From: Caballeronia sp.
Lineage (GTDB): Bacteria; Pseudomonadota; Gammaproteobacteria; Burkholderiales; Burkholderiaceae
Assembly: GCF_028292365.1 (NCBI RefSeq)
Contig: NZ_JAQGMM010000494.1
Coordinates: 1 to 37,710, forward strand
DNA: 37,710 nucleotides
Direction of reading: 5' to 3'
Numbering within the stretch: the stretch's first letter is position 1; every line of letters begins with the position of its first letter. Both the position numbers and the translations under genes were made by a program. Shown piece by piece: positions 23,708 through 37,710 of the stretch. The notes beneath the pieces were generated by a model. It did not search any database and was not told where the DNA came from. It saw only the letters and a program-made list of their open reading frames with translations.

Positions 23708-24671
23708 TGGCATCCTGCCGTGCGCCATACACTTCGAGTGCGGCATCGTGCAGCGCTCGAAGCACAACGGTTGCCGCCGGCGACAATAGTTGCGTTTGCC
23801 GGGTGATGATGCCGAATGCGTCCATGCGGCACGGCAATTCAATTGCCAGCCGCTTGAGCGTGCCGAATTCCTCGTATTGCCGCGCGACCTCTTCGGGCAT
23901 TACCGCGAGCATGTCGCTCTGCAGCAAGATGCCCGAGATGGCGACAATGTTGTTGGTGTTCACCACATTCTGCGGCGAACTGAGGCCGATCTGCGAAAAC
24001 ACCATGTCGAACCTGTGTCGCAGCACGCTGCCTGGCGGATGCAGAACCCAGCCTGCATTGACAATGTCGTGCATGGTCAGGCCGGCCGCGTGTTCGAGCG
24101 GATGCCCGGGGCGCACGACCACGCATAGCGGTTCTTCTGCAATAGGCTCGTAACGCACCGCATCCTTGAACTGGCCCTGTCGCTCCAGCACTCGGCCGAT
24201 CATGATGTCGAGATGGCCTTCAGCAACCAGCGGCAGCATCACGTCTGAAGTCTCCACCTGCAGCCAGATCTGTAATTGCGGATAAAGCGCTTTCACACGT
24301 GCGATGGCAAGCGGCACCATGGTTGCGGCGGCCGCGGCAATCGCGCCAATCTGCACCTGACCCACGAGCCCCGCGCGCAACGCGGAGATCTCGTCGTGCG
24401 CCTGGTTCAGATTCGACAGCACCATGCGCGCATGCCGGATCATCACCTCACCGTACAGCGTGGCATGCATTCCATGAGGCGTGCGGTCAAAGAGCCGAAC
24501 CTCCAGCACGTCCTCCAGTTCCTTCAACAGACGCGACGCCGCCGGCTGTGTCATGCCGAGGACATCGGCGGCGCGGCGCACGTTGCCTTCTTCTTCCATG
24601 GCCGCGAGCAGCATCAACTGCCGCGTCTTGAGGCGCGCGCGCACGAACCAGTTCGAGTAGCTTTGAGCCAT
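23700..24671 (-). CDS. LysR-family regulator (GbpR/PcaQ-like)
   Basis: The 323-residue protein has an N-terminal helix-turn-helix (L-K-T-R-Q-L-M-L-L-A-A-M-E-E-E-G-N-V, A-A-D-V-L-G-M-T-Q-P-A-A-S-R-L-L-K-E-L-E) and an effector domain (G-Q-V-Q-I-G-A, R-P-G-H-P-L, M-L-A-V-M-P). The E-E-G-N-V-R-R-A-A start and N-N-I-V-A-I-S segment recall the GbpR/PcaQ group that respond to sugars or aromatic acids. The start complementary to 24669-24671 gives the usual N-terminus; the frame is open 11 codons more. Its stop lies in a tandem repeat. Confidence 0.85.
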   Translation of the reverse strand: MAQSYSNWFVRARLKTRQLMLLAAMEEEGNVRRAADVLGMTQPAASRLLKELEDVLEVRLFDRTPHGMHATLYGEVMIRHARMVLSNLNQAHDEISALRAGLVGQVQIGAIAAAAATMVPLAIARVKALYPQLQIWLQVETSDVMLPLVAEGHLDIMIGRVLERQGQFKDAVRYEPIAEEPLCVVVRPGHPLEHAAGLTMHDIVNAGWVLHPPGSVLRHRFDMVFSQIGLSSPQNVVNTNNIVAISGILLQSDMLAVMPEEVARQYEEFGTLKRLAIELPCRMDAFGIITRQTQLLSPAATVVLRALHDAALEVYGARQDAIA

Positions 24672-25001
24672 CGCCGTGTGCCTATGCGTGAATTGAAACG
24701 ACACTGAAAGCTTCTTTGCGTACTGGATATGCCGGCGATTTTTTCATTGTCGTTTTAGCTTGGTGACAAACAAGGTTGTGGCTCAGGGAACGCGCGGATT
24801 CTCTATCGGAATCAGGCGAGACCCGCAGCGGTGGACGCGGCTTGCCGGTCATGGACGTCAATCGTAGCCGATCGTGGCTGCCGGGCAGGCGGACGGCGCA
24901 AGCCACATTATCGCCGCTTGGAGGCGTTTGCCTGATTTAACGTACGAGGGAGGAATGATAGGCGCTTCCCGAAGCCGGGCGAGCAATTCGGCATTCGGTT
25001 G
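24672..25001. other. 330-bp intergenic region
   Basis: It lies between the LysR start and the stop of the membrane-protein gene. A 74-codon frame here lacks a ribosome site and is rejected. A weak GATTC-N7-GAATC repeat is the only structure noticed. Confidence 0.4.
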
Positions 25002-25643
25002 CTAAGCCGTGGCGATCAGCAACACGCCGGTGCCCGCGAGTCCGATGGTCCAGAGCCTGTCGAAGTTGATCCAGCCGCGCCTGAGCACGCCCACGCCCAG
25101 CCAGTCGTACACCAGCAGCGCAATGGCGCCTGTCACGAGCAAGGTGGTCACGGTATGCAGGCCGACAGCGGCGAGCGAGACCAGCAGTGGCCCGGATGAC
25201 AGCCCTGTCATGGACCCGCACAAGGGGATCAGTGCCGGGATCAGCATGAGGCCGGCTCCATGAGCGGTTGCCATCAGGAACGACCAGAGGACGAGGCCGG
25301 CAAAGCCTGTCGTCATGCCAACACGCACGCGGTGCCGGTGTCCGTAGCGAACCTGGTACACGGCCCAGGCGACCAGCAGGACGCCACTCGCGATGCGGAT
25401 GAGGTGACTGTCCAGGACTATCCCCGTCGTGAGCACGAGCGCGGCGACTACGCCAATAGAGAGTGCGTGGCCCAGCGCCATTGGCGGGATTGCAAGAAGG
25501 ACTGCCAGCCGGCTACGCCGGTGCAGACCGAGGGCGACCGCGAACAGCCAGCCCATGGCGGGGTTGATTCCATGAAATACGCCAAGGGCCGCTATGGCGA
25601 ACCACTCCCATGCGTGGCCCGTCCCGGCCCATGCCATATTCAT
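25002..25643 (-). CDS. Six-helix membrane protein beside methanethiol oxidase
   Basis: The 213-residue protein has about six hydrophobic helices. Histidines sit in or beside several of them: V-F-H-G-I-N-P, L-G-H-A-L-S, T-A-H-G-A-G and L-H-T-V-T. In-membrane His residues of this kind occur in metal transporters such as NicO/HupE-type proteins, but I do not recognise the family with certainty. It starts 49 bp after the methanethiol oxidase stop on the same strand and probably shares its operon. A role in metal supply or in sulfur-compound traffic is an inference from that context. Confidence 0.75.
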   Translation of the reverse strand: MNMAWAGTGHAWEWFAIAALGVFHGINPAMGWLFAVALGLHRRSRLAVLLAIPPMALGHALSIGVVAALVLTTGIVLDSHLIRIASGVLLVAWAVYQVRYGHRHRVRVGMTTGFAGLVLWSFLMATAHGAGLMLIPALIPLCGSMTGLSSGPLLVSLAAVGLHTVTTLLVTGAIALLVYDWLGVGVLRRGWINFDRLWTIGLAGTGVLLIATA

Positions 25644-25692
25644 GATGCGCCGGGTTCGAGCGCTTCACGAGAGCGGCCGCTCCCAAAGAACA

Positions 25693-27087
25693 TCACGGAT
25701 AACAATACGAGTCCGACGAGCAATCGCCGCCCTCGAGCCGCACCTGATGCGGCCGGTGCGTGGAAGGCCACTCGACCAGGAAACGCGGATCGAATTCGAT
25801 TCCGCCGTCCGGCGACGCATCGAGTTTCACCATCCAGCCTTTGAGACCATCGGGATAAAACTGTTCGTCGATAGCGCCGTATAGCGAGTTAGTGAAATAC
25901 ACGCGGCTGCCGTCGCGGCTGACCTCGACCATCTGCGGTCCGCCGTTCAGGGCGCGACCGTCCGCTTTCGGATGTGATTCGCGCGATACGATGCCGCCGA
26001 TTCGCACCGTCCCGGTAAGCTTTGGCGCGAAGGGATCGGACACGTCGTATTGCCGCAAGTCTCCGGTTCCCCAGCACGCGACGTAGAGAAAGCGATCATC
26101 CATTGAAAGGTCGATGTCGGTGACAAGCGGAGGCACTGCGCCGAAACCCTTCAGCATGGGCGGCAACAGATCGGGGTCGGCAGGCTCGGCGGGAATTTCG
26201 ATGATCTTCTTGACGCTCCACTTGTCACCGTCGCGATACCACGTCCAGATAGACGCCGATAAATCGTTCAGGCTGATGACGGAGTTCACGAAGCCGTATG
26301 CCTTGGTCGGATCGTGGGCCGGACGCAGTTCGAATACGAGCTGGTTCTCCTTGCCGAAATCAATCTCCTGCTTATGTTTGCGGGTATGCAGGTCCCAGAA
26401 ATGAAGCTTGTGTCCGTATTGACCACCCAGCAGGACCTCCGGCACCAGCCCGTTTTCGAAAGTAGCAGGCAAGCCCCATTCGCTTGTGACCAGGGTGTCG
26501 TGTCCGAGATGCCACCAGGCATCGTAGGATAGTTGCTGAGGACCCCGATCGATTTCCCATTGACCGCGGATGTCGAAGGTCTCGTGGTCCATCAGAAAAA
26601 TGCCACCCGGCGCTTCGCCTTGCGCGTTGCTCAAAGCGGCTACGTAGATACCCTCGGGTCCGCAGTGAACTGTATGAGGCCGCGTATAACCTGCTTTCTC
26701 CGCGACTTCGGCGGGCTCCAGTACGCGCACGATCTTGGGGTTGCGCGGGTCGACCTTGGTATCGAGAATATGGATTCTCGACGATCGCAAGCCGGGCACG
26801 ACCAGATAGCGACGTTCGGCGTGCGGGTGGGGTGCGTTCGGGCATAAGCAGGAACTGCAGGCGTTCCAGCCGAAGTGATGAAGCTCGTCGCCCGTATTGG
26901 GCATTGCAACATTACCGATGAGTTGCGAATAGCTGGACGACGCGGGGTCTACGTCTATGACGGAAATGGCATCCGGAACCTGTCGTGTGGGATCGAAACT
27001 CGCTACATACGCGATCGTCTCGTGCGGCGCCTTCATGGCCATCCGCGGGGAGGGATAGAACGTTGGATCCGGCGTCCAGTTTGCCAT
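25693..27087 (-). CDS. mtoX: Methanethiol oxidase / selenium-binding protein (SBP56 family)
   Basis: The 464-residue protein shows the SBP56 landmarks: D-P-T-F-Y-P-S-P near the start, D-E-L-H-H-F-G-W-N-A-C-S-S-C, Y-T-R-P-H-T-V-H-C, W-G-L-P-A-T-F-E-N-G, D-I-D-L-S-M-D-D-R-F-L-Y-V and H-P-H-Q-V-R-L-E-G-G-D-C-S-S-D at the end. Bacterial members oxidise methanethiol to formaldehyde, hydrogen sulfide and hydrogen peroxide and are reported to need copper. No signal peptide is visible, although some characterised homologues are periplasmic. The C-terminal tail S-Y-C-Y-P after C-S-S-D is unusual. CTGGAG precedes the ATG. The symbol follows the family name only. Confidence 0.88.
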   Translation of the reverse strand: MANWTPDPTFYPSPRMAMKAPHETIAYVASFDPTRQVPDAISVIDVDPASSSYSQLIGNVAMPNTGDELHHFGWNACSSCLCPNAPHPHAERRYLVVPGLRSSRIHILDTKVDPRNPKIVRVLEPAEVAEKAGYTRPHTVHCGPEGIYVAALSNAQGEAPGGIFLMDHETFDIRGQWEIDRGPQQLSYDAWWHLGHDTLVTSEWGLPATFENGLVPEVLLGGQYGHKLHFWDLHTRKHKQEIDFGKENQLVFELRPAHDPTKAYGFVNSVISLNDLSASIWTWYRDGDKWSVKKIIEIPAEPADPDLLPPMLKGFGAVPPLVTDIDLSMDDRFLYVACWGTGDLRQYDVSDPFAPKLTGTVRIGGIVSRESHPKADGRALNGGPQMVEVSRDGSRVYFTNSLYGAIDEQFYPDGLKGWMVKLDASPDGGIEFDPRFLVEWPSTHRPHQVRLEGGDCSSDSYCYP

Positions 27088-27286
27088 GTCATTTCTCCAG
27101 GGAATGTTTGTCCCTGGTGGCCCGGTGGAAGCCGCTCCAAGGATTGCCCGCAGAACTACGAAGCAAATATACCTTGTTTTCAGCTTTCAACGATCGACCG
27201 GCTTAGCGACCAAAGCTTGATTTCTTCTAAGGGAATGCCTTGTGGCGATAAGCGTTGTCTTAGCTCTTACAGACGCCACCAAGCGC

Positions 27287-27317
27287 GAACGCCCGGCTTT
27301 ATGCTTGCCGGGCGTTC
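27287..27317. terminator. Perfect 11-bp hairpin after the minus-strand peptide genes
   Basis: GAACGCCCGGC and GCCGGGCGTTC are exact complements around a 9-base loop. On the minus strand it lies about 50 bp after the stop of the third leader-peptide gene. No U-tract follows, so it may stabilise the mRNA 3' end or end transcription with help. Confidence 0.6.
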
Positions 27318-27352
27318 AGTCCACGCGTGCGTTAATTCAGTCCACGCGTGCG
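27315..27352. repeat. 17-bp direct repeat with TTAA spacer
   Basis: TTCAGTCCACGCGTGCG occurs twice, separated by TTAA, directly downstream of the third peptide gene. Each copy contains the 8-bp palindrome CACGCGTG (27322-27329, 27343-27350), so it may bind a dimeric protein. Confidence 0.8.
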
Positions 27353-27364
27353 CCACAAACCAAT

Positions 27365-27586
27365 CTATTTGCGCGGTTTCCGACCGGTGACTTTTGCCGC
27401 GGGTTGCGTCGCGGCAACTCCAATCTGGTTAGCCGGAAAATTGACGATCTTCGTGCTGTTCGCCGGCGTTGCATACGAGCGAAGCGCCGAACGGGCGCTG
27501 GACCTTGCGCCGCCGACAATCGCGCTCATCGCCTGCTTGTCGAGTTCCACGCTGTCGGGTAGATCCTTGATCAGAATTGCAGCCAT
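27365..27586 (-). CDS. Double-glycine leader peptide with cationic core
   Basis: The 73-residue product has a 26-residue leader matching the pattern I-x-D-L-x4-E-L-D-x2-A-M-S-x-(V/I)-x-G-G, with hydrophobic residues at -4 (Ile23), -7 (Met20) and -12 (Leu15) from the Gly25-Gly26 cut site. C39-peptidase exporters recognise these positions. The 47-residue core has nine Arg/Lys and no Asp/Glu and ends G-R-K-P-R-K. It is unlike the Asn-rich cores of its neighbours. It is the third of three leader-peptide genes in a row. Antimicrobial activity is possible from the charge but not shown. Confidence 0.75.
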   Translation of the reverse strand: MAAILIKDLPDSVELDKQAMSAIVGGARSSARSALRSYATPANSTKIVNFPANQIGVAATQPAAKVTGRKPRK

Positions 27587-27658
27587 GGTGTCATCCAGGA
27601 AAGTTGAGGGTTTCTATTCAAACCAGTATAGGCAATTTAGGCCGTTAGAAACGCCGGA

Positions 27659-27689
27659 TCCGCTGCGGGAAGATTCTCCCCGCAGCGGA
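27659..27689. terminator. Perfect 11-bp hairpin between the second and third peptide genes
   Basis: TCCGCTGCGGG and CCCGCAGCGGA pair exactly around a 9-base loop. On the minus strand it follows the stop of the 27723-28001 gene by about 35 bp. No U-tract is present, which fits a partial terminator or an mRNA-stabilising element setting the ratio of the peptides. Confidence 0.6.
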
Positions 27690-27722
27690 CGTCGACGCGT
27701 GCAGACCTGCATTTGCCTGACT

Positions 27723-28001
27723 TCAAAAATACACAGCCGAACCCGTGCTCGCATACTGGGCCGGATTGACGTTGAGGTGAATCGGCCCGATGTTGGCGCC
27801 GAGCACGCCAATGTTATTGAGCGCATTGACCTCTACGTTTTGATACTGAACGATGTTCTGGTTCGTGTTCACTGCGACGTTGATGTTGGCAAGAGAACCG
27901 GCGTTGGCAAGCGATGTGTTGCCGCCGCCGCGCACGTCCGACATGGCGTGGCGGTCCAGCTCCCGGCTGTGAGACAAATCGTGAATCATGATGGACGACA
28001 T
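27723..28001 (-). CDS. Double-glycine leader peptide with Asn-rich core
   Basis: The 92-residue product carries the same 26-residue leader (D-L-S at 8-10, E-L-D at 14-16, A-M-S at 19-21, V-R-G-G at 23-26). The 66-residue core has 14 Asn and no Cys. It contains Q-x-Q-N-x2-V-N-x2-N-N at residues 52-63, exactly where the two other long members carry it, and ends S-A-V-Y-F. TTGGAG lies before the ATG. It should be exported after removal of the leader. Repetitive N/V/I-rich strands suggest beta-structure, possibly self-assembly; this is inference. Confidence 0.8.
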   Translation of the reverse strand: MSSIMIHDLSHSRELDRHAMSDVRGGGNTSLANAGSLANINVAVNTNQNIVQYQNVEVNALNNIGVLGANIGPIHLNVNPAQYASTGSAVYF

Positions 28002-28082
28002 GGCGGTGCTCCAAGCTAAAAAGTAAGGGTGGCCTGAACGGGCAACCTGGAGACCGCGAGGCCTCCGGGCTGTCGCGCAGCT

Positions 28083-28343
28083 TCAGAAGTTGATCGTGTT
28101 GGTGCCGGTCTGCTTCGGTTTCACGTTCGAGTCAAGATGCTCGGCGAACGCGACGTTGTTGCCGTTGTTGACCAGCGTGTTTTGCGACTGGCTGATCAGT
28201 TGAGTGGCATCGAACGAGGATTCGTACGAGGACACGCTGACGCCGGGCCAGTAGCTGGGCAGCGTGCCACCGCGTACGGCCGACATGGCGCGGCTGTCGA
28301 GTTCTTCGGTAACGGACAGGTCTTTGATCGAGAGTGATTTCAT
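28083..28343 (-). CDS. Double-glycine leader peptide, Asn/Gln-rich (copy A)
   Basis: The 86-residue product is the first of the three minus-strand peptide genes. Its leader ends V-R-G-G at residue 26; the 60-residue core starts T-L-P-S-Y-W-P-G and has the Q-x-Q-N-x2-V-N-x2-N-N motif at 52-63 and the end T-N-T-I-N-F. It has no Cys. It is 74/86 identical to the plus-strand copy at 34291, with changes confined mostly to residues 27-51 and 67-70. AGGAG is seven bases before the ATG. Export through a C39-type ABC system is predicted; the function is unknown. Confidence 0.85.
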   Translation of the reverse strand: MKSLSIKDLSVTEELDSRAMSAVRGGTLPSYWPGVSVSSYESSFDATQLISQSQNTLVNNGNNVAFAEHLDSNVKPKQTGTNTINF

Positions 28344-28433
28344 GGCAGTTCTCCTAAGGGTTAAGCCAGGTGGCTTTAAAGGTTGGTGAGCATCTTGTCT
28401 GCTCGCTGGACACTAATGCATGGCCCGTGCCAG
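28083..28433 (-). repeat. 351-bp inverted duplication, left copy
   Basis: The peptide gene and the 90 bp before it match 34201-34551 in opposite orientation, about 92% identical by hand alignment (4 differences in 90 upstream bases, 23 in 261 coding bases). Similarity stops at the stop codon on one side and around 28433 on the other. Confidence 0.9.
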
Positions 28434-28723
28434 AAGCGTCGAGGTGTGACGAAAAAGTCCTGAAAGGCTTGTGCAGAAAGGCCTGGGGCAAAGTGGGGCA
28501 GGCGCGTCATGCACGCCTTCTCACTGGCATTCGACACGCGTGACGGTTGGCGGCCAACATCCGGAACCGGATCTGTTGGGCCGGCAACAACATGTGCCCG
28601 ATCGAACATCCGCAACGAAACCATGTTGCGAAAGGCAGGGCTGTCACCTAGTATCGAAACACTGCGAGTGCGGGTAACTACAGACAATATGTTCACTAAT
28701 GGAGCCGCGTACGAGCCGTAGAG
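28344..28723. other. 380-bp divergent intergenic region
   Basis: It separates the first minus-strand peptide gene from the kinase gene. The first 90 bp are the duplicated 5' region with AGGAG and the small palindrome AAGCCA-CC-TGGCTT. The remaining 290 bp hold only short frames without ribosome sites, and no clear promoter was recognised. Confidence 0.45.
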
Positions 28724-30760
28724 ATGACCAGTCTTGCGCAAGCTATCCGAACCTTCCAAAACAGCGGTGCGTCACGCGATGAGTTCTTGATACTCGTCGA
28801 CGGTGCGTTGTCCGTCGACGACACCTCGCCCGGGCGGCTGCTGGAAATACTCCGAGAAGAACAAGCCAGGACGCCGCTGCCGGCCGATCTTTATGCGGCC
28901 GTGCATCGGCGGATCGAGCAGGCGTCGCTGGCGAGTCACGGCGCGAATTCCGATGAGACTCGCCTGCAGACTTCGCCAGGCGCGTTGCACCAGCCGTCGA
29001 TCCCCTCCTCGCCGTCATCCTCCTCCCCCTCCTTGTCTGCGCGCGACTTCGTGATGTCCGGGACGGATCAGATGAAGGAGGTCGGCGATACCCTCAACGG
29101 GCGCTTCGTGCTTGAGGAATGTCTTGGTGTGGGCGGCATGGGAACCGTCTACAAGGCGCTCGACCTGCGCAAGCTCGAAGCATCTGATCGCCGTCCATAC
29201 ATTGCGATCAAGGTGCTGAATCTACAGTTTCGCGGCAATCCGAAATCGCTCATTGCCCTGCAGCGAGAAGCGAAGAAGGCGCAGACGCTGGGGCATCGAA
29301 ACATCGTCACGGTGTACGACTTCGATCGCGATGGCCCAGTGGTTTACCTGACCATGGAGTATTTGTCGGGCAAGCCGTTGAGCCGGATCTTGCGGGCTCC
29401 TGAGTTCAAGGGCATGCCGTATGCAGAGGCCTTGCCGATCTTCAAAGGCATGGCAAATGCGCTGGCCTATGCGCACGAGCGCGGATTCGTGCATTGCGAT
29501 TTCAAACCCGCGAACGTATTTCTGACCGATACCGCCGAGGTGAAGGTCATCGACTTTGGTATCGCCCGCGTGTTCCAGCGGCCCGAAGAAGAGACCGACG
29601 CAACAATCTTCGACCCCGGTAGTCTCGGCGCGCTGACGCCTGCTTATGCGAGTCCGGAGATGCTTGAGCATCGCGAACCCGATCCCCGCGACGACATCTA
29701 TGCACTCGGCTGCACCACCTACGAGCTGCTGACCGGGCGGCATCCCTTCGACCGCGTACCGGCAAGCCAGGGGCGCAGCTCGGGGCTTAAGCCGCAGCGT
29801 CCCGATGGTCTGGGGACGCGGCAATGGCGGGCGCTGAGGTCCTCGCTCGAATTCGAGCGTGAAGCGCGCATGCCGACGGTCACCCAGTTCCTGCAGGAAT
29901 TTGGCGAACCCCAAAAACGTAGCGGTATGTCGGGCGCGGCGGTGAGGGCGGCTATCTCCGCGGGCGTACTAGCCGCGGTGGCTGCCGCCGGCTATTTCTA
30001 TGCGTCGACGCATCGCACCACGCCACAGGAGAAAGCCGCCGCCATACCGGAGAAAACCGCCGCGGCGCCAGTGCCCACGCCGGTCGTCCCCGCCACGCTT
30101 TCACTCGCCACGGTCACCCCTGTGCTCGCGCGTGTGCCGTGTTCGGCGCTGGCTGCGTCGGTGCAGGATCAGGCACTGAGTGTGAGCGGTTATGTTGGCC
30201 GGAGCTATGGCACGCAGAAGTTGCGCACGACGCTAAGCCAGATTCCGGGTGTCACCCATCCCGGCGTACAGGTTCAGGAAGTCGACGACGATAAATGCGA
30301 CATGCTCAAGCTGATCGCGCCTTACTTGACGACGAGCCGGCCGGCGTCGATCCAGACCCGGAATCACGATGCGCAGTTGACCGAAGGCCAGCCGCTGGTC
30401 GTTCAGATCACCACGCCGCCCTACGATTCATGGGTCAATATCGACTATTACCAGCTCGATGGCAGCGTAGTTCATATGCTGCCGAACGCACGTTCGAAGG
30501 ATAATCAGGCGCCGCCGAACTACGCTGCAACTATTGGCAGCGCAGGCGACTGGATTGTCGCGAAACCGTTCGGCTCGGAAATGATCGTGCTGCTCGTGAC
30601 GCCCGCAGCGCTGTTCGATACGACCAGGCCAGAGAGCGAGCCGCGAGCGGATTATTTGCGGGCGGTGGAGAAGCGGCTTGCCGATATCGCGAACAAATTC
30701 GGGCGCGACAAGATTGCCGTGGATCTCGTTCAGATCGACACGCACCCCCGCAAACAATAA
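28724..30760 (+). CDS. Membrane-anchored Ser/Thr protein kinase with DUF4384-like C-terminus
   Basis: The 678-residue protein has an N-terminal region of about 120 residues with a Ser/Pro-rich stretch, then a Hanks-type kinase (125-395): G-V-G-G-M-G-T-V loop, Lys163 in A-I-K-V, H-C-D-F-K-P-A-N (257-264; Cys replaces the usual Arg of HRD), D-F-G at 277-279 and S-P-E at 310-312. A membrane helix spans 405-427. The exported part (430-678) includes V-V-Q-I-T-T-P-P-Y-D-S-W and D-G-S-V-V-H-M-L-P-N, which resemble DUF4384. It should phosphorylate cytoplasmic partners; the double-FHA protein at 36441 is the natural reader. Confidence 0.9.
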   Translation: MTSLAQAIRTFQNSGASRDEFLILVDGALSVDDTSPGRLLEILREEQARTPLPADLYAAVHRRIEQASLASHGANSDETRLQTSPGALHQPSIPSSPSSSSPSLSARDFVMSGTDQMKEVGDTLNGRFVLEECLGVGGMGTVYKALDLRKLEASDRRPYIAIKVLNLQFRGNPKSLIALQREAKKAQTLGHRNIVTVYDFDRDGPVVYLTMEYLSGKPLSRILRAPEFKGMPYAEALPIFKGMANALAYAHERGFVHCDFKPANVFLTDTAEVKVIDFGIARVFQRPEEETDATIFDPGSLGALTPAYASPEMLEHREPDPRDDIYALGCTTYELLTGRHPFDRVPASQGRSSGLKPQRPDGLGTRQWRALRSSLEFEREARMPTVTQFLQEFGEPQKRSGMSGAAVRAAISAGVLAAVAAAGYFYASTHRTTPQEKAAAIPEKTAAAPVPTPVVPATLSLATVTPVLARVPCSALAASVQDQALSVSGYVGRSYGTQKLRTTLSQIPGVTHPGVQVQEVDDDKCDMLKLIAPYLTTSRPASIQTRNHDAQLTEGQPLVVQITTPPYDSWVNIDYYQLDGSVVHMLPNARSKDNQAPPNYAATIGSAGDWIVAKPFGSEMIVLLVTPAALFDTTRPESEPRADYLRAVEKRLADIANKFGRDKIAVDLVQIDTHPRKQ

Positions 30761-30795
30761 CGCCTGCCGCAAGACCTGTTTGCCGCAAGACCAGT

Positions 30796-32709
30796 TTATT
30801 TCATGTCGCGCGCCACGCGCATGCCATTCTGCGATTGCCGCACGCTAGGGCTGTATTTGAACCGCGTGGACGACTGCATGTAGGCGGCGCCGTCTGGCCA
30901 CGAGCCGCCGCGGATGACGCGCATCGGGCAGCCGGGTTCATCCCACACACGGCCATCCGCCGGCGCCCCTTTGTATGAGCTGTGCCAGCAGTCGCCGACC
31001 CAGTCCCACACGCTGCCGTTCATGTCGAAGAGTCCGAAGGGGTTGGGAGTGAACGAGCCTACGTTCACCGGGCTGTCCTTGCGCCACGGCTCGCCGCAGT
31101 CCTTGCAGTCGGCGTAACCCTTGCGCATCTCGTTGCCCCACCAGTAGGCGGTCGTGGTACCGCCGCGTGCGGCGTATTCCCACTCGGCTTCGGCCGGCAG
31201 GCGATACGTCTTGCCGGTTGTCTTGGTCAGCCACTTAACGTAGGCCTGCGTGTCGTCCCAGCTTAGATTGCGCATCGGCGCGGACTTCGCGGCGTTGCCT
31301 TCTATATCGACGCGCGGGCACCCGCTTGCATCCGCGCACGCGCTCCACTGCTCGACGGTCACTTCGGTTTTACCGATAGCGAACGGCCGGCCGATGCTGA
31401 CCCTATGCACGGGGCGTTCGGCAGGATCGTCGGAACTACTGCCCATTTCGAACGTGCCGCCCGGTAGCGAAACCAGCGCAGGACACGTGGCGCAGTCCTT
31501 GATCTCGCTCGCGGCGGACGCGGCTGTCTTGATGGCCGGAGCGGGAGCCGGGGCAGGCGGCGGCGTGGGAGTGGCCGCCGCTTTTTCCGCAGGCGCCGGT
31601 GCGGGCGGTGCGACTGTGACGGGCGAGGCAGGCGGCGTGGCTGCGCGCGGATGGTCTGCCTGAGCGGGCGATTGCGCCTTCGGAGCGGAGGCCGCAGCGC
31701 GAAGCCGGTCGATACGGGCGTGTGCGAGCGTGGCAAAGCGCCCGTTAGGATAGGCCTTCAAATAGGCTTCGTAATCGCTCGGGTAGGTGCTGTCCTTGAT
31801 CGACTCCCAGAACGTGAGTTCGTATTGTTCGTTGCTGTCCTTGGGAAGAATTCCCCGGCTTTGATACGCGACGACGGTTTCGGATGCCGTCATACGGTTG
31901 CTGCTGTCGCTCGCTTGTCGACCAGCAGCAGGAGCGAACTGGAAGCCCCGTGCAGCCGTTGCGGGTCCTACCGTCATCCATGGCACTTGCCGCCCCTCTG
32001 TTGCACGGCTCACGGATCGCGCGACATCGTGTAGCACGTCTTCAACACTTCGCCCCGGCTGGTTGATCGCGCGCAATAACGCCGCGGTGTACGTGCCATG
32101 TCGCGCGCCGTCGGCGGCGTAGGCGCCGGCTGCAGTCGCATACGCCACGATCGTCCGCGAGGGCGGCCGGACCATGTTGACATTGACCGGGTCATAGGGA
32201 TTGTTCAGACAGGTATCGAGCATGACCAGATTGAGTTGGTCGATGCGGGGCGCCGACATGCCAGCAAGGATGCTGTTCAAGTCGATACCCTGGGTGATCG
32301 GCGCCGCGGGTGACCCCTGCGCGTCGAGCGGCAGCAGCAGCGTGGATTTGCCGACTTGCACGGCATGTCCGGCGAAATAGAGCAGTCCGACACCGCCCGC
32401 AGCCAGGCGCTTGTTGAATTCCTGAACTGCTTCGTTCATGTGCGCGCGATCGAGGTTCGAGTACGTCATGACCTCGAAGCCGAGCCGGCTCAGCATCTCG
32501 CCGGTCGCCGTCGCGTCGCGCGTGGCGTTGGCGAGCGGATGATCCTCATAGCTTCCATTGCCGATGACCAGCGCAAGGCGGCGCGGATGCACCCCGCCAT
32601 TCTGCTCAGCGGCGCCGCTGCTGAGTGCGACCGCCCCAAGCAGGATCGCGAGCCAAAGATTTCTCCACATGATTTTTCGTATGAGTCTTCGTATGATTCT
32701 TCGCCACAT
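30796..32709 (-). CDS. Secreted caspase-like (C14) / SUMF1 fusion protein
   Basis: The 637-residue protein has a basic N-terminus and signal segment (to about 34). A caspase-like domain (43-260) has L-A-L-V-I-G-N, the catalytic His115 in Y-F-A-G-H-A and Cys167 in L-D-T-C-L-N-N-P. A helical Y-P-x-G-x-F-A motif (310-335), a long Ala/Pro linker (345-400) and a C-terminal SUMF1/FGE-like domain (408-637: [41 protein letters not shown]) follow. The first two ATGs sit in a short duplication (M-W-R-R at 1, M-W-R-N at 14), so the start may be 32670. It is convergent with the kinase gene. Its substrate is unknown. Confidence 0.9.
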
Positions 32710-33105
32710 TGATCACACCCCGTGCCGGTATTCAACGGCACCCTCAAGGAACCGCGCCAGAGCCGCATGATCCGCGGGAGGGTAGCTGCCCTCTCGCAGA
32801 ATTCGATCGTCCGATGGGCGAGCATCACAACCAACCATAGCACGCAACTACTTCATATCAACGTGGTCAAGACGGCGTAACGATGCAACGTGTCGTGATT
32901 TGCCCGGGGATTGGCCTTTTATGACGAATTCATCGTTACGGCAAAAGACGGAGACCTAATTATTATGACGATACAGAATAAATAATCAGTCGCACGATGC
33001 CTCGAAAACGGCCGAATTGCGCTCCCTCGGAGCATGTCTTTTTAACGGATTCCGTCCTAAGCTAGCTAGGAGAAAACCGTGCATAGGGCTCGGGAGAATA
33101 CGAAA
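32710..33105. other. 396-bp divergent intergenic region
   Basis: It lies between the caspase/SUMF1 gene and the first DUF4399 gene. The part near 32940-33000 is AT-rich and probably holds promoters for one or both sides, but no convincing -35/-10 pair was identified. The palindrome AGCTAGCT lies at about 33060-33067, just before the AGGAG at 33068-33072. Confidence 0.4.
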
Positions 33106-33537
33106 ATGCTAAGAAGAACCTTCCTCGGCGTGCTCGCTTTCATGACGGTGCTGATACCGTCGCGTTCCTTCCCGGCTGCGCGCACGCCGTCGCCCCCTGG
33201 CGCGGAGGCATTCATCATCTGGCCGCCCGACGGCGCGGTGATCACAGGCGGAAAAATATGGGTCCGCATGGGCCTGCGCAATATGGGTGTGTGCCCGAAG
33301 GGCGTCAACATCCCCAATGTAGGTCACCATCACTTGCTGATCGATACGGAATTGCCTCCGTTCGACGAGGCAATTCCGTCGGACCGCCAGCATCTGCACT
33401 ACGGAGCGGGTGAAACCGATGCCCGGGTCGAATTGCCGCCGGGCAAGCACACGCTGCAGTTGCTCATGGGCGACTACAACCACGTGCCGCACGATCCCCC
33501 GATCTATTCGAAGAAGATCACGATCACCATGAAATGA
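33106..33537 (+). CDS. DUF4399 exported protein (first of two)
   Basis: From ATG 33106 the product is 143 residues with a signal peptide (M-L-R-R-T-F, hydrophobic to about 22, cut near F-P-A-A). A GTG at 33079 with AGGAG upstream would add nine residues. The mature part matches DUF4399: G-H-H-H-L-L-I-D-T, I-P-S-D-R-Q-H-L-H-Y-G-A-G-E-T, L-P-P-G-K-H-T-L-Q-L-L-M-G-D-Y and H-V-P-H-D-P-P-I-Y-S. The clustered His residues could bind metal. It is periplasmic by prediction and is followed after 31 bp by a paralogue. Confidence 0.88.
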   Translation: MLRRTFLGVLAFMTVLIPSRSFPAARTPSPPGAEAFIIWPPDGAVITGGKIWVRMGLRNMGVCPKGVNIPNVGHHHLLIDTELPPFDEAIPSDRQHLHYGAGETDARVELPPGKHTLQLLMGDYNHVPHDPPIYSKKITITMK

Positions 33538-33568
33538 CAGGCTGCAGATTAAGGGGAGGGCGTGTGCC

Positions 33569-34015
33569 ATGAAGAAATTTTGCGCTGCCGCAGTGGCCGC
33601 AATCTCGATCGCGGTTTCTCTGATATCCGGGTCCGGGTCTGCGCTGGCCGGCCCCACGTCCGCGCCCGCCGCTGCATACGCGTATATCGGTTACCCGAAC
33701 AACGGGCAGACCCTTCCCGCCGGCAAGCCATTTCGCGTGTGGTTCGGGCTGCGTTACATGGGCGTCGCTCCGCGCGGCGTGAAGTATCCGAATACCGGCC
33801 ACCATCATTTGTTGATCGACACGGACCTGCCCAAGTCGTTCGATGACGAGATTCCCTCCGACCGCCAACACCTGCATTTCGGCGCGGGTGAAACGGAGAC
33901 CACGCTCGAGCTGCCTCCCGGCAAGCACACGCTGCAATTGCTGATGGGCGACTACATGCACGTTCCGCACAATCCCCCTGTCTATTCGAAGAAGATCACG
34001 ATCTACGTTAAATGA
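33569..34015 (+). CDS. DUF4399 exported protein (second of two)
   Basis: The 148-residue product has a clear signal peptide (M-K-K-F-C, hydrophobic to about 20, cut after A-L-A near 27). Its DUF4399 domain closely resembles the preceding protein's: G-H-H-H-L-L-I-D-T, R-Q-H-L-H-F-G-A-G-E-T, G-K-H-T-L-Q-L-L-M-G-D-Y, H-V-P-H-N-P-P-V-Y-S-K-K-I-T-I. The two genes form one operon and probably a tandem duplication. GGGGAGG lies before the ATG. A periplasmic binding role, for example metal or peptide, is possible but unproven. Confidence 0.9.
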   Translation: MKKFCAAAVAAISIAVSLISGSGSALAGPTSAPAAAYAYIGYPNNGQTLPAGKPFRVWFGLRYMGVAPRGVKYPNTGHHHLLIDTDLPKSFDDEIPSDRQHLHFGAGETETTLELPPGKHTLQLLMGDYMHVPHNPPVYSKKITIYVK

Positions 34016-34022
34016 TCGAGCC

Positions 34023-34054
34023 GGTTCACGCGCAGCGAGTGTCGCGTGTGAACC
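34023..34054 (+). terminator. Hairpin after the DUF4399 pair
   Basis: GGTTCAC (34023-34029) pairs with GTGAACC (34048-34054), and GCG/CGC extends the stem across a small bulge. It begins 8 bp past the stop codon. There is no clear U-tract. Confidence 0.5.
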
Positions 34055-34257
34055 AACAGTTCATCAAACAAGCGTTGGTTGCCGCCCATCATGCGAGTCT
34101 GCATGACGCGTGGGCGACCGCCTTCCGCCGCTACAAATTAATCGCGCAAACCCTTTCCCAATAAAGCTCAGAATGCCTCGGGCCAATTCATTGGTCACGC
34201 CTGGCATGGGCCATGCATTAGTGTCCAGCGAGCAGACATGATGCTCACCAACCTCTA

Positions 34258-34271
34258 AAGCCACCTGGCTT
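34258..34271 (+). promoter_or_regulatory. Conserved leader palindrome of the peptide genes
   Basis: AAGCCA-CC-TGGCTT lies seven bases before the TTAGGAG ribosome site and is identical in the left copy. It may be an operator or a small 5' hairpin affecting translation. Confidence 0.45.
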
Positions 34272-34290
34272 ACCCCTTAGGAGAACTGCC

Positions 34291-34551
34291 ATGAAATCAC
34301 TCTCGATCAAAGACCTGTCCGTTACCGAAGAACTCGACAGCCGCGCCATGTCCGCAGTACGCGGTGGCAACCTGCCCAGCTACTGGCCCGGCTACAGCAG
34401 CACGTCGGCCGACTTCTCGTTCAACGCCACGCAACTGATCAACCAGTCGCAAAACACGCTGGTCAACAACGGCAACAACGTCGCGTTCTCCGAGAATATT
34501 GACTCGAACGTGAAACCGAAGCAGACCGGCACCAACACGATCAACTTTTGA
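34291..34551 (+). CDS. Double-glycine leader peptide, Asn/Gln-rich (copy B)
   Basis: The 86-residue product shares its first 26 residues, up to V-R-G-G, with the minus-strand copy A, and most of its C-terminal half. The core starts N-L-P-S-Y-W-P-G and differs mainly in residues 35-51. It has 12 Asn in 60 core residues, no Cys, and the Q-x-Q-N-x2-V-N-x2-N-N motif at 52-63. TTAGGAG is at good spacing before the ATG. It is the gene directly before the outer-membrane factor at 34650, in the same direction, which links the peptides to a type I-like export route. Confidence 0.87.
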   Translation: MKSLSIKDLSVTEELDSRAMSAVRGGNLPSYWPGYSSTSADFSFNATQLINQSQNTLVNNGNNVAFSENIDSNVKPKQTGTNTINF

Positions 34552-34553
34552 TC

Positions 34554-34607
34554 TTCAGGCGCAGGCAGCGAAGGTCATCCGGTCTTCGCTGCCGCACCTG
34601 GCCTGAA
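34554..34607 (+). terminator. Long bipartite hairpin between peptide and exporter genes
   Basis: An outer 7-bp stem TTCAGGC/GCCTGAA encloses a perfect inner 10-bp stem GGCAGCGAAG/CTTCGCTGCC (34564-34593) with a 10-base loop. It starts directly after the peptide stop and has no U-tract. Such an element could protect the short peptide mRNA and limit read-through into the exporter gene. Confidence 0.6.
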
Positions 34608-34649
34608 CCCAGTCGCATAGTCGGATAACACCTGCCCCGGAGTGAGATC

Positions 34650-36191
34650 ATGAAAACCACGTCGCTATTGGGTAGGCTGCCGGCCCACACCGCCAAGTTT
34701 TCTGCGCCGGGTGCTGCAAACATTCTGCTCGGACGGTTCGTGCTTCCGGTACTTGCCTGCACGACACTTCTCAGTGGTTGCATTGATGTGAATGTACCGG
34801 ACTACAAGCGTCCTGATACGCCAGCCAAGACGACGTGGTCACAAACGGCCAAGGCGCTGGTCTCACCGGCCGACACCATTACGCTCGACTGGTGGAAGCA
34901 ATTCCACGACCCGTATCTCGACTCCCTCGTCAATCGGGCCATAGCGGGCAACTTCGATATCAAGATTCTCGCTGCGCGCGTGTCAGTCGCCGGTGGACAG
35001 ATTAACGAGGCGCGTGCCGGCGCGCTTCCCACCGCCGATCTCGGCGCGGGCGTGGAGTTTAATAAAAGCACGCGGCAGGATTTCACGAAGCAATATAACG
35101 TCGCCACGCAGGTGAACTGGGACATCGACATCTGGGGCGCGGTCGAGAAGGGCGTACAGGCGCAGAAGGCCGAATATCGCGCGTCGGAAGCGGATTGGCG
35201 CGCGGGCTATCTCACGCTTGTGTCCGATGTTTCGACGACCTACTTTCAGATTCTTCAGTTCGATGACCAGATCGACCAGCAGCAAAAAACGCTGCGCACC
35301 AACCAGCAGATCCTGACCATCTTCGAAGGCATGGCAAAGAACGGCCTGGTGCCGAAAACACAGGTTTTACAGCAGCGCGCGGAAATCAACCGCATGACCA
35401 AAGACCTGCTGGAATTGCATCGCGCCCGCGACCTGGCGAACAACGCGCTGGCCACATTGATCGGCGTTCCGGCTGGCGAGTTCACCGTGCCCGCGGGACA
35501 GCTCGAGAAGCGCGTGCAGATTCCCGTCGTGCCGGCGGGCTTGCCGGCGCAATTGATGGCGCGGCGACCGGACGTAGTGGCGGCCGAATACCGCGTGCTG
35601 GAAGCGTATGACGTCGTGGGCCAGGCGAAGCTCGCGCAGTTGCCGACCATCAGCCTCACGGGCCGGGGCGGTAGCGCGAGTTTCGCGCTGACCGATTTAT
35701 TGAAGTCCTTCACGTTCAGCTTCATGCCCAGCATCAACATTCCTCTGCTGGATCCAAGCGTCAGGGCGCATGTCAAGACGACCGAGGCACAGACGATCGT
35801 GGTGGAGCAACAGTATCGACGCACCGTGATGGGGGCGTTCGAGGAAGTGGAGAATTCGCTGGTCAACCTCGACGCACATACGAAGCAGCGCGCCGAACTG
35901 CAGGAAGAAGTGGGGCACCTGCAAGTGGTGGGTGCCCAGATTGAAGCGCAACTCAAGGAAGGCGTGGTGTCGCAACTGGAGGTCTTCGAGACCGAACGTA
36001 CGTTGCTTGCGGCAGAACTGGCGTTGCTTGAAAACCATCAGCAACTGCTCTCCGATACGGTGACCCTCTATAAGTCGCTAGGCGGCGGTTGGCCGTCGGT
36101 CGATGTCCAGAAGACCGATCAGGCAAGTGACCCGACCGCCGCGCATGATGCGCACGCTGGACTTGCCGCAAGTAAGGGAGCAACGAACTAA
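34650..36191 (+). CDS. NodT-family outer-membrane efflux lipoprotein (TolC-like)
   Basis: The 513-residue protein has an extended N-terminus and a lipobox L-L-S-G-C with Cys near residue 44. The two TolC-like halves follow: W-W-K-Q-F-H-D-P-Y-L-D near the start, W-D-I-D-I-W-G, A-R-R-P-D-V-V-A-A-E in the second half and long coiled-coil helices with V-S-Q-L-E-V-F-E-T-E-R. It would be the outer-membrane channel of a tripartite exporter. The adaptor and the inner-membrane pump are not in the window. Position between a leader-peptide gene and an FHA gene suggests it serves peptide export. GGAG precedes the ATG. Confidence 0.92.
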   Translation: MKTTSLLGRLPAHTAKFSAPGAANILLGRFVLPVLACTTLLSGCIDVNVPDYKRPDTPAKTTWSQTAKALVSPADTITLDWWKQFHDPYLDSLVNRAIAGNFDIKILAARVSVAGGQINEARAGALPTADLGAGVEFNKSTRQDFTKQYNVATQVNWDIDIWGAVEKGVQAQKAEYRASEADWRAGYLTLVSDVSTTYFQILQFDDQIDQQQKTLRTNQQILTIFEGMAKNGLVPKTQVLQQRAEINRMTKDLLELHRARDLANNALATLIGVPAGEFTVPAGQLEKRVQIPVVPAGLPAQLMARRPDVVAAEYRVLEAYDVVGQAKLAQLPTISLTGRGGSASFALTDLLKSFTFSFMPSINIPLLDPSVRAHVKTTEAQTIVVEQQYRRTVMGAFEEVENSLVNLDAHTKQRAELQEEVGHLQVVGAQIEAQLKEGVVSQLEVFETERTLLAAELALLENHQQLLSDTVTLYKSLGGGWPSVDVQKTDQASDPTAAHDAHAGLAASKGATN

Positions 36192-36204
36192 GCGCACGTG
36201 ACGC

Positions 36205-36238
36205 GGCCGATTTTTTAGGGCAATAGTTCACATCGGCC
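36205..36238 (+). terminator. Inverted repeat after the outer-membrane factor gene
   Basis: GGCCGAT (36205-36211) and ATCGGCC (36232-36238) pair exactly around a 20-base loop beginning with TTTTT. It begins 14 bp after the stop codon. It is a weak terminator candidate. Confidence 0.4.
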
Positions 36239-36298
36239 AAAACCAATGTTCGGAATGCAAAGTGTTAGTTCTCTGGCGACAGATGTGTTGCTGAATGA

Positions 36299-36326
36299 TT
36301 GACTACCGCCGAGTGTGACTTACACT
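36299..36326 (+). promoter_or_regulatory. Putative promoter of the FHA gene
   Basis: TTGACT (36299-36304), a 16-bp spacer and TACACT (36321-36326) give a plausible sigma-70 promoter. The inverted repeat AGTGT-N5-ACACT (36312-36326) overlaps the -10 and could be an operator. The FHA gene may thus be transcribed separately from the outer-membrane factor gene. Confidence 0.45.
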
Positions 36327-36440
36327 TCATGGCGTCACCGCTTTCACCGCGGTTTCGTCCAACACGGTTCATCGGCGGGAGTGCGGGGGTTTATCGCGCC
36401 GCGCTCAATGCGGGATGAACGTCCTTCGAGATGTGGACCC

Positions 36441-37710
36441 ATGGCTCAAGGGGAAGCTTCCGTTGCCGAGGCAGGGCCGGTGCTGCACAAGGCCTTCGAT
36501 CTCTTGCTCGAGCCCGAGTCCTGTCCCGCGGCCGGTGTCATTCGTATTGACGAAAATCTGTTTGCAGTCGGACGGTTTGAAGCGCCTTTCGCCTCTTATG
36601 AAACCGACGCCGTTGCGCAGTTGTCGCGGCGTCACGCGCGGATCTTTATCGAGAACGGCGCAGCGTACGCGGCCGACCTCGGCAGCAAGAACGGCACGAC
36701 GGTGAACGGTGTGCTGCTGCGCGATAAGCCCGCGCGGATCCAGGGCGGTGACGTCATCGGCTTTGGCGGAAAGCTCGCATTCCGGGTGCGGATGGAACCA
36801 CGCGCCGTATCGCGGGCATACGCGATTCAGCCTGTGCATATGACGCTTACGCCGGAGCGAGGCGACCTCGGATTGCATCCGGTCGAGCTCACGGAGTTTC
36901 CATTCCTCGTCAGCAAGGCGGACGAGACGTTCGCACAATACAGCGACCGTTATCCTCATCAGGTTAACTATGTGTCACGGCGGCACGCGCATATTTTCAT
37001 GAAGGCGGGGGTGCCATTCGTCGAGGATCTCGGCAGCACGAACGGCACATTCGTCGACGGAAAACGACTGGGTGAAACCGCTGTGCCGCTGCAAGATGGT
37101 GCATCGCTTGCATTCGGCGGCAATCACTTCGCATACGTTGTGAGCATGCGGCGGGAAACGGAGCCGCCGGATTCAGCCACGACCACAAGTGCCGCTACGA
37201 CGGCGGCCACAACCGGCCCGGCGGCTCAAAGTTCACCGGACGATCTGGACAAGACCACCTTCATCACGACGGCGCACTCCTTCCTGGATATCTTTTGCGT
37301 GGATCAGGATCAACCGTCGGAAGATGAAATCAACCGCGAGCCATTGCCCGACGAACGTGTCCCGGCACGCCGCCGATCTCGCAGCAAGTTTGTGCGCTTT
37401 GTCTCCGACCTTGGCGCGGCATTCGGTGGCGGCCAGCCGATGAAGCGCGGAGTGCTCTTTGGAGGCCTGGCATTCGTCGCAGCAATGATTGCGATCGGCA
37501 GCGCGCTTTATTTCAGCGGCACGGCCGAGCGAAATCTCAAGAGTCTGGTCGATCTCGGTGACTACCGCCACGCCGTGACGGTCGCGAATACTTACCTGGG
37601 CAAGCATCCAAACGATCCCCAGGCGATGGTCCTGGGCACGGAAGCTCTGTTCAAAGGCTATCTGCCGGACTGGCTCGACCAACTGAAACATCGGAATTTC
37701 GACGCCGCCC
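36441..37710 (+). CDS. Double-FHA-domain membrane protein (partial, runs off the window)
   Basis: At least 423 residues are seen without a stop. Two forkhead-associated domains lie at about 35-115 (V-G-R-F at 43, L-S-R-R-H-A-R, D-L-G-S-K-N-G-T) and 130-235 (V-S-R-R-H-A-H, D-L-G-S-T-N-G-T). Both keep the phosphothreonine-binding S-x-x-H and N-G-T residues. A Thr/Pro/acidic linker, a basic patch (A-R-R-R-S-R-S-K), a membrane helix (338-358) and the start of a TPR-like region (L-G-D-Y-R-H-A-V) follow. ATG 36441 is chosen; an in-frame ATG at 36408 is possible, and neither has a strong ribosome site. It is the likely reader of the kinase at 28724. Confidence 0.85.
   Translation, partial: MAQGEASVAEAGPVLHKAFDLLLEPESCPAAGVIRIDENLFAVGRFEAPFASYETDAVAQLSRRHARIFIENGAAYAADLGSKNGTTVNGVLLRDKPARIQGGDVIGFGGKLAFRVRMEPRAVSRAYAIQPVHMTLTPERGDLGLHPVELTEFPFLVSKADETFAQYSDRYPHQVNYVSRRHAHIFMKAGVPFVEDLGSTNGTFVDGKRLGETAVPLQDGASLAFGGNHFAYVVSMRRETEPPDSATTTSAATTAATTGPAAQSSPDDLDKTTFITTAHSFLDIFCVDQDQPSEDEINREPLPDERVPARRRSRSKFVRFVSDLGAAFGGGQPMKRGVLFGGLAFVAAMIAIGSALYFSGTAERNLKSLVDLGDYRHAVTVANTYLGKHPNDPQAMVLGTEALFKGYLPDWLDQLKHRNFDAA

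Follow-up and report, generated by a model that had tools for sequence, protein, structure and literature searches.

A putative regulated C39-type export locus for asparagine-rich leader peptides in Caballeronia and other bacteria

Double-glycine (GG) leaders and exporters with a C39 peptidase domain are typical of microcins and bacteriocins. In the type I secretion systems of class II microcins and colicin V, GG-leader toxins with immunity genes are handled by a C39 ATP-binding cassette (ABC) exporter, an HlyD adaptor and TolC. GarA and OdhI are FHA phospho-switches, with a conserved Thr-Thr motif near the FHA domain. Available passages on Synechococcus elongatus describe EbfG1-4 as GG-motif proteins that are exported with the C39 protein PteB and serve the biofilm matrix, EbfG1-3 forming amyloid (PMC4997328, PMC9981879). 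For the type VI PpkA-PppA-Fha pathway, the passages available describe a kinase, its cognate phosphatase and an FHA protein encoded with the secretion machine (PMC5995506). Here we analyze a locus of Caballeronia sp. that combines GG-leader peptides with a kinase, a phosphatase and an FHA protein. The window, i.e. the whole stretch of DNA analyzed, is the entire 37,710-nucleotide contig C629 (NZ_JAQGMM010000494.1). It appears to hold roughly one half of a locus for regulated peptide secretion that is truncated at the contig end, inside the FHA gene. The experimental precedents of EbfG/PteB export and of the type VI kinase-PP2C-FHA set lead us to favor regulated export of assembling peptides. 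As a whole, our best explanation, held with moderate confidence, is regulated C39 type I export of Asn-rich assembling peptides under sigma-54 and kinase/FHA/PP2C control. The titles and abstracts that we covered (most subscription papers fell outside this scope) contained no description of such a kinase/FHA/C39 peptide system.

Four small genes in the window encode peptides with a common 26-residue leader that ends in GG and has hydrophobic residues at positions -4, -7 and -12. A preliminary description of this DNA had given the pattern as I-x-D-L-x4-E-L-D-x2-A-M-S-x-(V/I)-x-G-G, and all four genes carry it as described. They are:

27365-27586, minus strand: leader peptide type D; mature part of 47 residues, net charge +9
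27723-28001, minus strand: leader peptide type C; Asn-rich mature part of 66 residues
28083-28343, minus strand: leader peptide type B; Asn-rich mature part of 60 residues
34291-34551, plus strand: second copy of leader peptide type B, 86% identical to the copy at 28083-28343

The window contains the full pattern four times, whereas none of 300 resamples drawn from it by a first-order Markov model contained it. With a looser pattern the window again gave four occurrences and the 300 resamples together gave one. No Pfam family was found for any of the four peptides at an E-value of 0.1. The leader family is larger than these four, which were all that the preliminary description had listed: with a profile built from five peptides we found six in the genome, the fifth on contig C566 and the sixth on contig C477. 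The C477 peptide (61 residues; L009:1408-1593, minus strand) is an orphan remote from the locus and is perhaps exported in trans.

The genes reported around the peptides were confirmed by Pfam and NCBIfam:

28724-30760, plus strand: membrane Ser/Thr kinase with catalytic motifs (Pfam); its C-terminal DUF4384-like region is below the Pfam cut-off
30796-32709, minus strand: caspase-like (C14) and SUMF1/FGE protein (Pfam), with a signal-like N-terminus by eye
33079-33537, plus strand: first DUF4399 protein (Pfam); an alternative start at 33106 is possible
33569-34015, plus strand: second DUF4399 protein (Pfam)
34650-36191, plus strand: NodT-type TolC-like outer-membrane channel (Pfam OEP; above the NCBIfam NodT cut-off)
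36315-37710, plus strand: N-terminal part of a tandem-FHA membrane protein, cut by the contig end (two FHA domains in Pfam); the start may be at 36480; holds a DKTT island

The fusion of caspase and SUMF1 parts stands for the window. It is not general, since the uncut SUMF1 copy of genome G662 has 412 residues and, by its length and our reading, is without that N-terminal region. The passages available from the DUF4399 literature concern other matters than this locus.

A C39-peptidase ABC transporter had been predicted beyond the window, and we found one in the same assembly. A Pfam C39 search of the genome gave a single match (PF03412, 141 bits), on contig C566, to a C39-ABC exporter of 893 residues that is open at the contig end. 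This contig also encodes a sigma-54 AAA+ activator, a PP2C phosphatase, an LRAT-like protein and the fifth leader peptide (domain names on this contig are taken from the orthologues in genome G033). In relatives the exporter lies within the locus. An intact locus of about 20 kb is present in G033 (NZ_CP049157.1, Caballeronia sp. SBC1 plasmid pSBC1_1, same match position). There the genes are ordered LRAT-like protein, type A peptide, PP2C, sigma-54 activator, exporter, parvulin, HlyD, tandem-FHA protein (830 residues), NodT-like channel, type B peptide, two DUF4399 proteins, C14-SUMF1 protein and kinase, followed by peptides of types B, C and D. The G033 exporter has 1019 residues and comprises two stretches of the cyclic-nucleotide-binding type, a C39 domain (PF03412, 1.3e-39) and an ABC part; in an alignment, the C39 Cys and His columns are kept both there and in the window's genome. 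The set of genes is also seen in two further genera of the family (in G662, PP2C and the activator are separated by other genes). Burkholderia stagnalis YJ-2 has it as well, with a single DUF4399 gene called. Four elements by which C39 type I secretion is recognized were observed: a C39 exporter, an HlyD adaptor (in relatives), a TolC-type channel and GG-leader substrates. C39 export is well supported by this anatomy, and the peptides very probably leave the cell by this route.

We examined co-inheritance in 61 genomes, 37 of Caballeronia and 24 from other families of the order. The exporter, matched over all 893 residues, was present in 28 of the 61, all within the genus, at 83-100% identity. 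Each of these 28 genomes had at least four leader matches (E 0.001), and the kinase (E 1e-60) was found in exactly the same 28 and in none of the 33 others. Fisher's exact test gives 5e-18 for 28/0 versus 0/33 and, within the genus, 8e-9 for 28/0 versus 0/9, values that serve as a guide only because the species are not independent. The preliminary description had named leader peptides that mostly occur without these neighbors as a refuting outcome. This outcome was not seen in the genus, where exporter, kinase and leader peptides occur together in 28 of 28 cases. In five genomes (G001, G004, G011, G017, G036) the kinase and the exporter are more than 100 kb apart on one contig, and a leader peptide lies at most 0.6 kb from the kinase. 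That the peptide stays by the kinase while the exporter is distant argues for a functional link beyond neighborhood. The same arrangement, and the sigma-54 activator in the locus, would also fit peptides that act as extracellular signals, sensed by the outer part of the kinase in a feedback loop. However, the mature parts are large (37-85 residues across the family, 47-66 in the window), there are several divergent types per genome and nothing points to a receptor, so that a signaling role appears rather improbable.

The locus is widely distributed. A scan of named genomes, one per species for 84,980 species, yielded 280 relatives, of which we examined the best 80. These include Caballeronia, Paraburkholderia, Cupriavidus, Trinickia, Noviherbaspirillum, Herbaspirillum, Paucimonas, Aromatoleum and others, and also metagenome-assembled genomes titled Halioglobus, Methylococcaceae and Thiotrichales. 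Strains whose genomes carry the locus include Paraburkholderia xenovorans LB400 (L201) and Cupriavidus alkaliphilus ASC-732 (L191). In samples spread evenly over the class (369 genomes) and the phylum (398 genomes), three genomes each, with the window's own counted in both, had an exporter at 68% identity or more. Sixty-three of the 80 loci span at least 23,000 bases ("full-flank" loci). Among these 63, we found the activator in 63, parvulin in 62, peptides in 59, PP2C in 55, HlyD, the FHA protein and the TolC-like channel in 54 each, the SUMF1 protein in 52, DUF4399 in 51, the LRAT gene in 44 and the kinase in 12; in Caballeronia the kinase is located outside the 10-kb flank. Counts for all 80 loci were 79, 78, 71, 66, 66 (HlyD), 66 (FHA), 64 (TolC), 57, 56, 51 and 12, in the same order. 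The HlyD adaptor, likewise predicted beyond the window, is present in relatives (G033 and the 54 full-flank loci) and was not found in the assembly of the window. A separate group of 63 named loci has TolC, FHA, HlyD, PpiC, exporter and activator all together, and in 59 of these the order TolC-FHA-HlyD-PpiC-exporter-activator is kept on one strand. Peptides were recognized by the leader pattern in 62 of the 71 peptide-bearing loci and by similarity in nine, two of the latter being imperfect (in L144 the reading crosses a masked stretch; in L177 the leader is not in the frame that was read).

We collected 182 leader peptides, 179 of them distinct, from 94 stretches of DNA, some of which overlap or share a genome. 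The collecting expression itself requires G[GA] and the hydrophobic frame, so these features are built in, and it overlooks some Cupriavidus copies. The leader core opens with Asp in 95% and Leu in 95% of peptides, and Met stands at -7 in 93% (n = 175). By a rough motif rule the 179 peptides comprise 57 of type A, 99 of type B, 10 of type C and 13 of type D, with at least six B entries resembling A, C or D by eye. The mature parts contain 13.3% Asn (n = 179), compared to 2.8% in 1204 other locus proteins. Types A-C have 21-23% Asn/Gln and a mean net charge of about -1; type D is basic (mean net charge +6.2) with 7% Asn/Gln. Type D, in the window (27365-27586) and in relatives, is short, basic and unlike the Asn-rich types, and may serve a purpose of its own. 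All four peptides of the window seem to be under constraint: the ratio of nonsynonymous to synonymous substitution rates was 0.18-0.51 in 12 comparisons of best-matching copies, the two type B copies perhaps not being strict orthologues, and 0.04-0.21 for the kinase, channel, SUMF1 and DUF4399 genes in the same analysis.

These properties bear on two further readings of the peptides. They could be bacteriocins of the class II microcin kind that use the same C39 export and kill competitors; the GG leader and C39 exporter suit that class, as does the small, basic type D. Profile searches of PDB gave one weak match each for types A and B, and the sole type B match was to carnobacteriocin B2 (E 0.093, profile positions 12-52, half of it leader). 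But types A-C are Asn-rich and near neutral or acidic rather than cationic, and type A, of which 57 stretches yielded one copy each, is conserved between genera. In addition, we recognized no immunity gene in the locus gene lists, although no search dedicated to such genes was made. We consider a bacteriocin function unlikely. The second reading is that the peptides are ribosomally synthesized and post-translationally modified peptides (RiPPs), altered by the SUMF1-type or LRAT-like protein or with the aid of the parvulin. The parvulin matches TIGR04500 ("peptide maturation") at 91.7 bits, with a cut-off of 180; both type B window peptides match TIGR04149, for leaders of radical-SAM RiPPs, below cut-off; and a related Tolypothrix exporter lies near HopA1-like and APH-like genes. 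Against this, the Pfam matches of the scanned locus proteins include no known RiPP-modifying enzyme and, as the preliminary description had noted for the window, no lanthipeptide, radical-SAM or YcaO enzyme. Cys makes up 0.1% of the mature parts and is present in only 9 of 179, the SUMF1 protein looks exported by eye, and the LRAT gene was found in 44 of the 63 full-flank loci. We consider modification by these enzymes improbable, slightly more so than signaling.

Two sigma-54 promoter-like sites (-24/-12) lie upstream of the type B genes in the window:

28417-28432, minus strand: one mismatch to TGGCACN5TTGCW; starts 89 bases upstream of 28083-28343
34202-34217, plus strand: two mismatches; starts 89 bases upstream of 34291-34551

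The sequences between sites and genes, 34218-34290 and 28344-28416, are nearly identical to each other, perhaps from a recent duplication or as a regulatory leader. In the collected stretches, 66 of 155 type A/B genes were preceded by a site with at most one mismatch, as were 6 of 1182 other called genes, a contrast that is flattered by the many control genes inside operons and in which seven control genes are long calls that match peptides. With random 400-base windows as an alternative control, sites accompanied 68 of 178 peptides and 56 of 3580 windows. The sites are enriched at the peptide genes, and we infer that the activator of the locus acts on them. Sigma-54 control is very probable.

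Besides its two FHA domains, the FHA protein contains a membrane span and a large helical part. An island at residues 256-276 (numbering in L070:2217-4709, minus strand) has a conservation of 0.81, compared to 0.31 and 0.47 in the flanking linkers. The DKTT island in this linker and a DKT tail on many PP2C C-termini are candidate phospho-switch motifs. Foldseek and VIA matched the model of the FHA protein mainly at its FHA domains and barely covered the helical part (350-815). Kinase, PP2C and FHA protein occur together in the locus, as in the type VI threonine phosphorylation pathway; no type VI core domain was among the Pfam matches of the scanned locus proteins, and such a system elsewhere in the genome was not sought. 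The kinase, the PP2C and the tandem-FHA protein with its conserved Thr island suggest phospho-signal control, which by analogy we regard as probable. A kinase beside a caspase could also indicate an anti-phage or cell-suicide module, and PADLOC models match the kinase (PD-T4-6, mad6 and others), the caspase part, PP2C (PDC-M21C) and the activator (RtcR-type AAA). Yet these matches fall on domains of a generic type (kinase, caspase, phosphatase and AAA), PADLOC matched neither the FHA nor the LRAT protein nor the one DUF4399 protein scanned, and the conserved core is an exporter with its substrates. A defense function is very improbable.

We rank the bacteriocin, signal, RiPP and defense readings below regulated export, for which we propose the following mechanism. 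Many type A and B peptide genes would be read from sigma-54 promoters by the AAA+ activator of the locus. The GG-leader precursors would pass to the inner-membrane exporter, with its two domains of the cyclic-nucleotide-binding type, C39 and ABC parts, and the leader would be cut after GG. The parvulin, which has no membrane span, probably keeps the peptides competent for export, and the HlyD adaptor and the NodT/TolC channel would carry the mature peptides out of the cell together with the exporter. By analogy with PpkA-PppA-Fha and GarA/OdhI, the membrane kinase with its sensor-like C-terminal part, PP2C and the two-FHA membrane protein would constitute a switch based on Thr phosphorylation. 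The DKTT island is perhaps its site, and its target would be either the assembly of the exporter or the activator. Outside the cell, the unmodified Asn/Gln-rich peptides would most likely form surface or matrix material, like EbfG. What the peptides do once exported is the least secure part of this mechanism; composition, paralogy and the EbfG precedent make a matrix role a tentative proposal with close to an even chance of being right. The analysis supports the regulated peptide secretion that the preliminary description had proposed, and adds what it had not foreseen: the sigma-54 sites, the parvulin, the two exporter domains of the cyclic-nucleotide-binding type and the wide distribution.

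Several observations weigh against regulated export as we describe it. A search of the window's own assembly with the parvulin-HlyD-FHA DNA of a relative found neither HlyD nor parvulin; the DNA matched the FHA piece and otherwise 28 and 35 bases only. The stretch between C629 and C566 is therefore missing, and the adjacency of the two contigs is inferred from relatives. HlyD, FHA protein and channel were not nearby in 9 of the 63 full-flank loci, five of them in Noviherbaspirillum (one of the nine, L146, keeps parvulin-exporter-activator and PP2C-peptides-kinase), and 9 of the 80 loci had no peptide. Weak leader matches were present in three exporter-negative genomes of the genus (G012, G015, G018); of the two matches in G015, the one inspected has an in-frame stop and is near a contig end. 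With regard to promoters, one of the two window sites carries two mismatches, a site with at most one mismatch is absent at 89 of 155 type A/B genes, and sites were found at 0 of 10 type C and 0 of 13 type D genes. The string [DE]KT[TQV] is unspecific alone, being present as well in 48 of 98 sequences of the exporter and 27 of 68 of the channel. Type D is basic and not rich in Asn. The AlphaFold2 model of the type B family is of low confidence (mean predicted local distance difference test score 61), shows the leader helix only and is uninformative on assembly; we claim no fold.

More distant relatives of the exporter (34-38% identity) were examined in 12 proteobacterial stretches (L109-L114, L129-L134), some of them cut by contig ends. 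BLAST with the G033 set found HlyD in 11 of the 12, the FHA protein in nine and parvulin and activator in six each, the AT-rich L112 being counted without usable gene calls. The C39 Cys is lost in 5 of 13 aligned exporters (L113, L114, L129, L134, L139), the 13 being 11 of these stretches plus Tolypothrix L138 and Skermanella L139. Small Gly-rich proteins without a GG leader (L113:820-1068; L131:177-446 and 510-770; L133:651-911) share a DNTSIGDINI-type end, DNTSIGDINISS or close to it, near the FHA-exporter cluster; an ATP-grasp-like gene (by eye) and genes weakly similar to TolC lie in the same surroundings. The locus may represent a large and as yet undescribed group of type I secretion systems gated by a kinase/PP2C/FHA switch, with new Asn-rich assembling surface peptides as cargo and the distant relatives, some with degenerate C39 and leaderless Gly-rich candidate cargo, as a second branch. 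We put this forward as a possibility, somewhat less probable than not.

Other features were seen in and around these loci. In G012 (L038) a leader peptide lies beside a kinase gene in pieces, with no exporter, and looks like a locus remnant. A conserved protein of about 82 residues is encoded near the LRAT-like gene in 35 of 85 loci (e.g. L147) and matches no locus reference protein; L074:1296-1544 (minus strand) encodes a similar one. The Halioglobus locus L140 is a divergent version with its own set of leader peptides and kinase-like and SUMF1-like genes; a 736-residue gene product there is partly exporter-like, probably in its cyclic-nucleotide-binding part. In the window, a 1030-residue open reading frame at 18179-21271 (minus strand) resembles, by eye, an autotransporter passenger with a beta-barrel end. 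Rfam at the gathering threshold found no RNA family in positions 24000-37710.

The locus resembles EbfG1-4/PteB in having several small GG-motif proteins and a C39 peptidase-transporter, a likeness drawn without sequence comparison. It appears to differ in its control genes; the passages available from PMC4997328 and PMC9981879 mention no kinase/FHA/PP2C set or sigma-54 activator. If the peptides form matrix, they would be a new family of assembling proteins in bacteria associated with plants and soil; a killing or signaling role would make them an untapped peptide class. Unlike the microcin and colicin V systems, the locus has Asn-rich families beside sigma-54, kinase and FHA genes. The Tolypothrix plasmid locus (L138) shares an exporter (35% identity over 98%) with HlyD and peptidyl-prolyl isomerase neighbors, but its other neighbors are HopA1-like and APH-like, and no FHA protein, kinase-FHA pair or DUF4399 protein is annotated in its 17.6 kb. 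As in GarA and OdhI, a conserved Thr-Thr lies near FHA, here in a tandem-FHA membrane protein that is linked to an exporter and in which the switch is predicted. As in PpkA-PppA-Fha, so far as that system is covered by the passages available, a kinase, a phosphatase and an FHA protein stand beside a secretion machine. In the present locus a C39 type I exporter takes the place of the type VI machine, and the FHA protein combines tandem FHA domains with a membrane span and a large helical part. The locus thus joins C39 peptide export with kinase-FHA-phosphatase control of the type VI kind, which are usually described apart.

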